DNA of 45,865 nucleotides. Origin: an uncultured Chlorobiaceae bacterium. GTDB lineage: Bacteria > Bacteroidota > Chlorobiia > Chlorobiales > Chlorobiaceae. Positions 1,218-26,463 of this stretch are shown here, piece by piece (within the stretch, counting starts at the first letter, position 1; the number at the start of each line of letters is the position of its first letter). The position numbers were made by a program, and so were the translations under genes. The stretch is taken from NCBI GenBank assembly GCA_903866255.1, contig CAIPMW010000080.1, positions 1-45,865 on the forward strand, in the 5' to 3' direction. The notes beneath the pieces are model-generated. The model ran no database searches. It had not been told where the DNA came from and was given only the letters and a program-made list of their open reading frames with translations.

Positions 1218-1251
1218 GATACGGACGTGAACGTCTCCGCTCATCCGGCTC
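1218..1251 (-). ncRNA. Domain V of inner group II intron
   Basis: A 34-nt hairpin beginning GAGCCG at 1251 and ending TATC at 1218, directly after the maturase stop codon. It is the catalytic domain of the ribozyme. The 3' strand reads CGTATC, where the usual partner of GAGCCG is CGGTTC. This leaves mismatches opposite G3 and C4 of the catalytic A-G-C triad. Confidence 0.8.
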
Positions 1252-2500
1252 CTCCTATTCCAGCCTGTCCATATAGTAAACGCCAGTGCGCGAACAATTG
1301 AGTGTTTTGCCGAGCTATACGCTCCAACCAGTGCATTGCTTGGCGTTTATGGCCTTTCAAACGCTTGAACTTTCGCGTAGCCCACAGCATGAGTTTGCGA
1401 TCTATGTGTCGCAAGGTTGGATAGAGTGCAGATTGATAATATGCACTGTAGTAGTTTACCCATCCATGGATTACCGCGTTAAACATTCGGGCCAAGTCAT
1501 CCAGTGCTTTATCACTGCGGAGAGGCAGTTTCCAGCTTCGGACTTCCTGCCGGATTGCTTTTGTGGCTTTGTTGCTGACCGCCGGACTGAAGTTGATAAA
1601 GAACTTCCCCCACCGGTTCTTTGACCGTCGCGGCCTGAATGTAAAGCCCAAAAAGTCAAAGCTGGTTTCCGAATAGTCCCCACGCCGATCACCATCTTTA
1701 CAGTAGACAATCCGGGTTTTCTCTGGGTGAAGCTCTAATTTACAGTCTTTAAACCGTTGCTTCAGTGCTGCCAGTAGCTCCTCTGCCTGTTCTTGTGTCT
1801 GACAGTGGCAAACACCATCATCCGCGTATCTCTCAAATGAAATCTGCGGATAATTTCGCTGCATCCACACATCAAACGTGTAATGCAGAAACACATTGGC
1901 CAGGAGTGGACTGATGACTCCCCCTTGGGGCGTACCTCTATCCCTTTTCTGCAAGGTTCCGTCCGGCATTTGCACGGATGCTTTCAGCCACCGCTCGATA
2001 TAAAGCAACACCCAAGGTTCTTGGGTATGCCGACGCACTGCCAGCATCAGGAGTTCATGATCAATTGCATCAAAGAAACCCTTGATGTCGAGTTCAACAA
2101 CCCAGTTGTTACGCCAGCAGCGCTTGCGCGCTTGCCCTATCGCTTGATGTGCTGATTTGCCGGGACGGTACCCGTACGAATCAGGATGGAAGTATGGCTC
2201 CACCTTTGGTTCCAGTGCTTGTTTAACCACCATCTGGGCTATCCGGTCGGCTATCGTTGGCACTCCTAATGGGCGAATGCCTCCGTCTGCCTTGGGTATC
2301 TCTACCCTTTTTACCGGTGGCGGCATATAGCTTCCTGATGACAACCGATTCCAGAGCTTGTAAAGATTATTTTTTATCTCTTTGTCAAACTCTTCTATCG
2401 ACTGCCCGTCCACTCCCGCCCCGCCCCGATTGGCTTTCACTCTTTTGTACGCATCCCATACCTGACGTTTGGCTATGGAAAACGACTTTGTCTGATTCAT
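1241..2500 (-). CDS. ltrA: Inner group II intron reverse transcriptase/maturase
   Basis: A complete 419-residue intron-encoded protein. RT motifs run in order: KANRGGAGVDG, GIRPLGVPTIADRIAQ, YGYRPGKSAH, VELDIKGFFDAIDH, GTPQGGVISPLLANV and the catalytic FERYADDG. FDFLGFTFRPR and the maturase domain with GWVNYYSAYY follow. Such proteins bind their own intron RNA to help splicing and copy it into DNA at a target site. There is no C-terminal HNH endonuclease. GGAGG lies 6 nt before the ATG at 2500, supporting this start. The frame shows no lesions, so the protein could still be made even if its ribozyme is impaired. Confidence 0.93.
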   Translation of the reverse strand: MNQTKSFSIAKRQVWDAYKRVKANRGGAGVDGQSIEEFDKEIKNNLYKLWNRLSSGSYMPPPVKRVEIPKADGGIRPLGVPTIADRIAQMVVKQALEPKVEPYFHPDSYGYRPGKSAHQAIGQARKRCWRNNWVVELDIKGFFDAIDHELLMLAVRRHTQEPWVLLYIERWLKASVQMPDGTLQKRDRGTPQGGVISPLLANVFLHYTFDVWMQRNYPQISFERYADDGVCHCQTQEQAEELLAALKQRFKDCKLELHPEKTRIVYCKDGDRRGDYSETSFDFLGFTFRPRRSKNRWGKFFINFSPAVSNKATKAIRQEVRSWKLPLRSDKALDDLARMFNAVIHGWVNYYSAYYQSALYPTLRHIDRKLMLWATRKFKRLKGHKRQAMHWLERIARQNTQLFAHWRLLYGQAGIGGAG

Positions 2501-4236
2501 GCAAATCCTCCCATTGCTGGTTGTTCACCCGTTTCAGACCGAATAGGGTAACCCCTTCGCTCCAGTTCCATTACAGAACCTTCATCACTACTACAGGTTA
2601 CTCCGCCCCTGTACCCCGCCTCGGTACTCTGACACTTGGAGGATCTCTCCTTGTGTTTCTCCCTTAACATCGGGGTGACAGGTTCCCACGTTCCGCACAA
2701 GAGCCTGAACCGTGTTCTCGCCACCTTTATGCCGGATGCCGTCTGGCCAGTAAGCAGGTTGCTTCCAGACTTATCCCGGGTTAACGACTCCCTCCCGGTT
2801 TTGACATCGTTCCTACGCTTTCGGCACGTCATCAGTGGTTCATTTGCATTCGACTCCACGGTTCTTATCTGACAGGGTCTTGCCCCGCCTTTTCCTGACT
2901 CGCTCACCACCACATCTCTTAAATGCAGCAGCAGCAGGTGATTTGAAGTCTCCGCCTGTACGGCGACTCCGAAGGGCCCACCTTCATCTCTTGTGCAGCA
3001 TGGCGGCACAGAGGACTTTCGTCCTCCTGTGCGCCTTCGTGGCGCACAGTCATCGGTGTATTTCACGAATTTATGGCCGCGTCGCTCCAGTTCCCGATCT
3101 ACTTCGTCCAGCAACACGTTTGCCAGTAGCGGCGACAGTGGCCCGCCTTGCGGTGTCCCCTCGTGTCGCTCTTTGGTTACGCCTTGTGCCATAATGCCTG
3201 CCTCAAGGTATCGACGTATCAGCCGTAACACAGCTTTATCGTTAATCCTTTTCGACAGTCTATCCATGAGCACATCATGATTGACCCTATCGAAAAATCG
3301 CTCCAAATCGACATCCACTACAACCCGGTATCCTTCTTGCACGTACCGTTGCGCTTGCAACACTGCATCTTGTGCTCTCCGGCCAGGTCGAAAGCCGTAA
3401 CTTGATTTGGAGAATGTCGGGTCAAACAATGGTTGCAGGATTTGCAACAGGGCCTGTTGAATCAGACGATCAATAACGGTCGGTATGCCAAGGTCACGCT
3501 TGTCACCACCAGATTTGGGAATTGCTACCCAGCGTACCGGTTTTGGCCAGTATAGGCCCGTTAATAGCTCTTCCCGTATCCGTGACCATTCGCTTTTCAG
3601 ATACTCTATCGTTGCCTCAATCGTCAATCCATCTACCCCTGCACTTCCGCGATTGGCCTTGACATGTTTCCATGCCTTGACCATATTCTCCCTTTCGACG
3701 ACCTGCAACAGCAAGTCGTTTCGTCCTAAACCTTTGGTTTCATGTTGCGCCAATCCTGCTTCATCGCGTCCAATACCAGACAAGGCTTCACCCTGCCCTC
3801 CCTTGGCTCGCTCCGGTTGCCCGGACTTCTGATGCAATGCACAATTAAGCAACATATCCTCCAGTTTTCCTTCTCGTTCGGCCCTTCACTCTTTACGAGC
3901 TATTACGGCCTCTGCTGACTTCTCGCCCCACATTGCTGCGTCGCCCTTTCAGGCATAAGGCGAGACCTCCCCAGGTAAGAGTTCGATCCTTCCCCGCACA
4001 ACCGCCGGATTTACGCAGCCTGACCCTTGACCACAAGAGCTTCGCAGTTAGATGCCTGCTCGCCCTGATCGGCTTCGCCTCGTATCCGATTTTTGTTCAT
4101 CGGCTCGCGGTTTCGTTTCACGCTTCCTCTCCACACTCGGTCACCCTCATGCAGTTGCGCTTCCCTTCGTTCGCTGTGGTCAACTCACGGGAGGACTTTC
4201 ACCTCCAAGATCTTGCCCATGTGGGGGCACATCAAC

Positions 4237-25733: not shown

Positions 25734-25976
25734 TCAACTTTTCTTCACATTGGAAGAATGAATAGGAAATTCACGCTCAATAATTGAGCCCTGGGTCTGA
25801 CCCTGTGCAGCACGCGTATGACGTTTCCTGATATTAACTCCTTCAACAATTACTCGACTCTTGACAGGGAATACTTTCAGAATCTTTCCCACTTTACCTT
25901 TATCATTGCCACTTATAACAACGACCGAGTCGTTCTTTTTGACGTGCAACTTAACCTTTTTAATCCCTGTTTTCAT
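25734..25976 (-). CDS. rplX: 50S ribosomal protein L24
   Basis: The 80-residue assembly-initiator protein has a KOW motif, [20 protein letters not shown] near the start, then [20 protein letters not shown] and ends with SNVKKS. It is shorter than the E. coli protein but has the whole core. It is separated from rplN by the tRNA-Gly gene rather than being adjacent as in the usual order. Confidence 0.95.
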
Positions 25977-26011
25977 TTTTCACTGATATGATAGTATTTC
26001 ATAAAATCCTG

Positions 26012-26084
26012 AGCGGGAGACGAGACTCGAACTCGCGACCAACAGCTTGGAAGGCTGTGACTCTACCAACTGAGTTACTCCCGC
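26012..26084 (-). tRNA. tRNA-Gly (anticodon TCC)
   Basis: The 73-nt sequence folds as a full cloverleaf. The acceptor stem is GCGGGAG (26084-26078) with CTCCCGC (26019-26013). The D-arm contains AGTTGGTAGA, the anticodon stem is ACAGC/GCTGT and the loop is CTTCCAA, with TCC read from 26051-26049. The T-arm is GTTCGAGTC. No CCA is encoded. It lies on the coding strand between rplN (start of gene to the right, stop at 26095) and rplX (start 25976), so it must be cut out of the r-protein transcript or have its own promoter. Confidence 0.95.
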
Positions 26085-26094
26085 CTGAAACGCC

Positions 26095-26463
26095 CTATAA
26101 AACTTCTGGCGCCAACGAGACAATCTTCATAAACTTTCTGTCGCGCAGCTCTCTTGCAACAGGACCAAAAATACGGGTACCCCTTGGCTCGCCCTGAGCG
26201 TTAAGAAGAACTACTGCATTTTCATCGAAACGAATATAAGAACCATCTTTTCTTCTTGACTCCTTGACACAGCGCACCACAACTGCCCTGCATACATCCT
26301 TCTTCTTAACAATTCCACCAGGAACTGCAGCCTTGACAGATACTATAATCTGATCACCCAATGAGGCATACCGCCTCCCGGTTCCACCGAAAACATGAAT
26401 ACAACGTACCCTTTTTGCACCACTATTATCGGCAACAACCAGATTTGTTTCTTTCTGGATCAT
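26095..26463 (-). CDS. rplN: 50S ribosomal protein L14
   Basis: The 122-residue intersubunit-bridge protein starts [20 protein letters not shown] and has the [20 protein letters not shown] and [19 protein letters not shown] blocks, ending [10 protein letters not shown]. Length matches E. coli. Its stop is only 10 nt from the 5' end of the downstream tRNA-Gly gene. Confidence 0.97.

Follow-up and report, generated by a model that had tools for sequence, protein, structure and literature searches.

The stretch of DNA analysed here (the window; 45,865 nt of contig CAIPMW010000080.1, from an uncultured Chlorobiaceae bacterium) carries on its minus strand a ribosomal-protein operon in which rplN (ribosomal protein L14; an ORF of 122 aa at 26095-26463, recognised by its rplN relatives) and rplX (L24; an ORF of 80 aa at 25734-25976, recognised by tblastn in relatives) are separated by a tRNA gene, with rplN as its upstream and rplX as its downstream operon neighbour. 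ARAGORN called a single tRNA in the window, a tRNA-Gly with the anticodon TCC at 26011-26084 of the minus strand, and the Rfam family RF00005 gave a full-length match at 26012-26084 on the same strand, scoring 68.1 bits where the cut-off is 29 (E 7e-13). Both programs agree with the original prediction of a complete tRNA-Gly(TCC) between rplN and rplX, lying 10 nt past the rplN stop; its placement on the coding strand was also right, since the operon runs on the minus strand and the tRNA likewise. The genes are tightly packed. The 10-nt spacer between the rplN stop and the tRNA (26085-26094, minus strand) is not conserved and holds no promoter-like element, and the AU-rich spacer of 35 nt between the tRNA and rplX (25977-26011, minus strand) is kept in the alignment of loci from family f1 and is a candidate for both a 3'-processing site and the rplX initiation region. 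The gap between rplN and rplX measures 118 nt and exceeds every other gap from tuf to rpsE (7-77 nt).

The tRNA is near-invariant among relatives and the spacer on its 5' side is variable; together, the covariance score and this conservation exclude a chance match. Its CCA tail is not encoded, and the 3' end reads ...CTCCCGCT-CAGG. Many other tRNA genes of this genome (among L002-L034) also lack an encoded CCA and show 'CA' directly after the discriminator base. The folding of the tRNA with its flanks was not unusually stable (z -0.73). A leader peptide within the 3' spacer, considered by eye, was dropped because the length of the spacer (mostly 34 or 35 nt) and its stops differ between relatives.

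The source genome (2.8 Mb in 117 contigs, 99% complete) gave 44 tRNA matches. When the junction was used as a DNA query, the only matches elsewhere in the genome were Gly-GCC, Gly-CCC and a weak Pro match, from which the junction tRNA is the only tRNA-Gly(UCC) found; this count of one, the number that the original prediction had left to be established, stands beside about a dozen of the 44 tRNAs whose anticodons were not read individually. By the usual decoding rules, none of the other glycine tRNAs found should read GGA, a codon that makes up 118 of the 501 glycine codons in the 30 genes counted. In this context, the junction tRNA should be an ordinary elongator, and the supply of GGA-reading tRNA should rest on this isoacceptor alone among those found. 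Its charging with glycine and its use in translation are likewise inferred from the sequence and from its status as sole copy. The same tRNA in Salmonella, glyT, is that organism's sole predicted reader of GGA and has been called probably essential (PMC6134099).

Two further loci were noted in the same genome. On the minus strand of the window, parts of group II introns occupy 1241-4150, with Rfam matches to D1D4-3 and D1D4-1 at 3881-4150 and to D1D4-2 at 2868-2985. This region has two reverse-transcriptase ORFs on the minus strand: the one at 2497-3855 loses the sequence of its family right after the KYTDD motif, and the other, at 1241-2500, is apparently complete. The arrangement resembles a twintron, in which one group II intron would have entered the reverse transcriptase of another. 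On another contig (L005; G000:C76, about 112200-112700, minus strand), downstream of an apparent rho, a very basic ORF of 35 aa with no Pfam match is followed by tRNA-Lys(UUU), tRNA-Leu(GAG) and a terminator-like hairpin, possibly a second unit of tRNA and mRNA in this genome.

Across 98 surveyed genomes of the order, taken from record titles to be Chlorobiales, the junction tRNA was detected in 84 of the 84 genomes of families f1, f2 and f3 in which rplN was found, with 13 f1 genomes without an rplN match being uninformative for the junction. A single BLAST match spanned rplN through the tRNA in 73 f1, 2 f3 and 3 f2 genomes, and in 6 further f2 genomes rplN and the tRNA were separate neighbouring matches. 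Moreover, ARAGORN placed a tRNA at the junction in all 50 loci of f1-f3 that were read, including 2/2 f3 and 9/9 f2 genomes. Being common to three families of the order, the junction tRNA is a lineage trait. In the single genome of family f4 (G039), rplN and rplX are 30 nt apart with no tRNA between them, and no junction tRNA was found in any of the 78 other rplN loci examined, of which 73 came from a species-level genome collection (Ignavibacteria, Rhodothermales, Bacteroidia, Gemmatimonadota and others) and five more from the same phylum. Viral contigs searched for rplN returned no relatives. A metagenome-assembled genome titled Chloroherpeton thalassium (L138), a candidate for a member of the order without the tRNA, was rejected as such: its ribosomal proteins group with those of L086 and L091, titled Ignavibacteria and Kapaibacterium, so that its title is probably wrong, and it was counted among the loci outside Chlorobiales. 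Consequently, the direct adjacency of L14 and L24 that had been assumed to be normal is the rule outside the order among the rplN loci examined, and the comparison of this junction in relatives, also proposed at the outset, gave a divided answer, with the tRNA present in f1-f3 and absent from the f4 genome and from the other loci of the phylum.

The likely source of the gene is an old tRNA cluster. In Salmonella and Escherichia coli this tRNA lies within thrU-tyrU-glyT-thrT-tufB (PMC6134099, PMC8046335). Similarly, the f4 genome and 10 of the 11 loci from other families of the phylum have tRNA-Gly(UCC) within a Thr-Tyr-Gly-Thr cluster that is either complete or interrupted by the end of a contig, the eleventh locus being a match to Gly-CCC; in two of those genomes the cluster and rplN share a contig and are about 21 kb apart. 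The corresponding cluster of the window genome is Thr-Tyr-Thr-Trp, without Gly, and Gly is missing from it in 15 of 15 further f1-f3 genomes as well. Furthermore, most cluster copies in relatives share 92-97% identity with the junction tRNA, and this identity and the absence of Gly from the window genome's own cluster make the junction tRNA the orthologue of the Gly gene of Thr-Tyr-Gly-Thr. Both observations indicate that the tRNA was relocated, either directly or via duplication and loss of the old copy. The likeliest history is a single relocation, possibly through duplication and loss, in which the tRNA would have moved between rplN and rplX in the ancestry of green sulfur bacteria and their sister families. 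The ancestral copy, which stood between tRNA-Tyr and tRNA-Thr in the Thr-Tyr-Gly-Thr-(tuf)-Trp cluster, is gone.

How this relocation came about depends in part on the position of f4, because a basal f4 would favour one clean move and an f4 placed beside f2 would favour duplication with differential loss. In trees built with iqtree from ribosomal and neighbouring proteins, f4 stood beside f2 in most cases, and in the best trees it fell inside the group with the junction tRNA. A junction copy arising by duplication, with both copies coexisting before differential loss and f4 keeping the original, is consistent with this placement. Copies do arise and decay at the junction, as judged from a degenerate tandem copy of tRNA-Gly in one genome (G042). 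However, a basal f4 with a single move after the f4 split was not rejected (p-AU 0.088), and f4 is sampled by one genome; on balance, we consider the history of coexisting copies neither favoured nor disfavoured. The degenerate tRNA-Gly(UCC) of G042 (L155) is a tandem duplicate with its flank, upstream of position 1566 on the rplN strand and before the intact gene.

The original prediction had left two routes for the release of the tRNA, processing of the ribosomal mRNA or an internal promoter. For the window genome, a -10-like motif (TATATT) was trained on the 60 nt upstream of 20 other tRNAs that are first in their units. These 20 units, each scored when left out of the training, had a median of 6.8, and windows of the ribosomal-protein operon averaged 1.95. 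The best score in the 60 nt upstream of tRNA-Gly(UCC) was 2.6, and over 41 orthologous loci of f1 and f3 (a few of them duplicates) the mean was 2.9. Since 3 of the 20 units fall at or below the value for tRNA-Gly(UCC), the missing motif is suggestive and not proof. No motif common to the 41 f1 and f3 loci was found upstream of the tRNA, and the 5' spacer in these families measures only 5-13 nt. Scans for sigma-70 promoters and terminators around the junction called no more sites than in shuffled sequence, and none on the operon strand. A literature search found nothing on transcription starts in Chlorobaculum tepidum. As a promoter-like element is absent here and present at most other tRNA units, processing from the ribosomal-protein mRNA is the likeliest route in Chlorobium, and an internal promoter finds no support in the window genome. 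Indeed, the background motif score, the unconserved 5' spacer and the 3' spacer conserved in the f1 alignment favour read-through from the operon promoter.

Family f2 differs in that the spacers around the tRNA are mostly longer. In four genomes of its genus g2 (L151-L154), elements resembling TTG-N19/20-TAnnTTTG, the Bacteroidota promoter type, were seen by eye 25-30 nt before the tRNA, with -10-like motif scores of 4.0-6.2, and in another f2 genome (L156, G043) TATCTTTG was seen, also by eye, further upstream of the tRNA. These f2 genomes may have given the tRNA a promoter of its own. Between the tRNA and rplX, genus g2 (L151-L154) also has a conserved hairpin, GCGTCAATCT...AGATTGACGC, and the folding of this spacer gave -19 to -28 kcal/mol. 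To the eye, an intrinsic terminator seemed likely after the g2 tRNA; it was rejected, as the T run lies 4 nt beyond the stem and a terminator scan of L153 did not report it.

The f2 elements lend some support to an alternative in which a promoter hidden at the end of rplN would drive most of the tRNA, which would then overlap the operon as a unit of its own instead of being processed from the operon mRNA. In f1, synonymous codon identity rises slightly near the 3' end of rplN (ratio 1.42-1.64 for codons 91-115, vs about 1.2 mid-gene), which could hide a weak signal. However, the short f1 and f3 spacers, the upstream score at the level of coding windows and the lack of a motif shared by the 41 loci speak against such a promoter, and we regard this alternative as unlikely.

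Overall, we are fairly confident in a relocated, GGA-reading elongator that is read through from the operon and released by processing. In Chlorobium, transcription of the ribosomal-protein operon would read through tRNA-Gly(UCC), RNase P would cut at the 5' end of the tRNA, RNase E/G with 3' exonucleases would produce the 3' end, and CCA would be added after 3'-end formation. Once the tRNA is released, the upstream mRNA would end at rplN and the downstream mRNA would begin about 35 nt before rplX, and the supply of GGA-reading tRNA would be tied to how the ribosomal-protein operon is transcribed. We infer co-transcription and the cuts, as well as any effect on expression. RNase P RNA and a gene for RNase E/G are both present in the genome. 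The canonical RNase Z model TIGR02651 had no match in the window genome and nothing above its cut-off in any searched genome of the order (G000-G048); it matched in 14/14 controls, and seven genomes from other families of the phylum scored above the cut-off. Should RNase Z be truly absent, RNase E/G and exonucleases probably generate the 3' end, and the AU-rich stretch conserved downstream of the tRNA becomes a candidate site. The 3' ends of tRNAs in the order may, more generally, be matured another way.

A further possibility is that the tRNA acts as regulatory punctuation, its regulated excision allowing S10-rplN and rplX onward to be expressed at separate levels, for instance if rplN were thereby freed from S8-type feedback on the spc mRNA; the retention of the junction in three families, the conserved 3' spacer running into rplX and the hairpin 3' of the tRNA in the four g2 genomes are compatible with it, but the tRNA is required for translation and its retention needs no regulatory reason, the spacer may be just the rplX initiation region, and no intrinsic terminator was called at the junction on the operon strand, so that we find this improbable. 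The fuller version, in which regulated excision, kept in three families, would set this boundary and also couple the supply of GGA-reading tRNA to ribosomal-protein output, appears very doubtful.

S10-spc is one of the best-conserved gene orders of bacteria, and an insertion in it that is fixed in three families of one order and holds the only GGA-reading tRNA found provides a clean marker of shared descent. The junction also offers a natural test of a ribosomal operon mRNA that must be cut for a tRNA to be released. Moreover, it is an example of a tRNA gene moving within the translation gene set and leaving an empty site behind.

A tRNA embedded in an mRNA operon is a known general arrangement; for the rplN-rplX position, our literature search found no paper describing it, and the tRNA is probably visible there in existing Chlorobium genome annotations. 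In the thrU-tyrU-glyT-thrT-tufB unit of Salmonella and E. coli, tRNA-Gly(UCC) shares one unit with an mRNA gene (PMC6134099, PMC8046335). The likeness lies in the same isoacceptor, the sole predicted reader of GGA, being joined to a gene of the translation machinery, whereas there four tRNAs precede one mRNA gene and in Chlorobiales one tRNA stands in the middle of a long ribosomal-protein operon with a coding gene on either side, and the corresponding tRNA cluster of Chlorobium, unlike that unit, is without Gly. In Bacilli, tRNA-Trp has been described with rpmG in the secE operon (PMC8046335). That case resembles ours in having a tRNA gene next to translation and secretion genes within the same large cluster, but it concerns another tRNA and another junction, the rplN-rplX position having been found here in this order only. 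The secG-leuU transcript of E. coli reportedly joins mRNA and tRNA, the tRNA being cut from an RNA that also carries a protein gene, with the tRNA located after the mRNA gene. Both tRNAs would be released from the transcript of a protein gene, but the Chlorobium tRNA is flanked by coding genes on both sides. In mitochondria, the cuts that release the mRNAs fall at tRNAs lying between the coding genes; such punctuation is a genome-wide principle there, whereas the order described here has a single tRNA in one bacterial operon.
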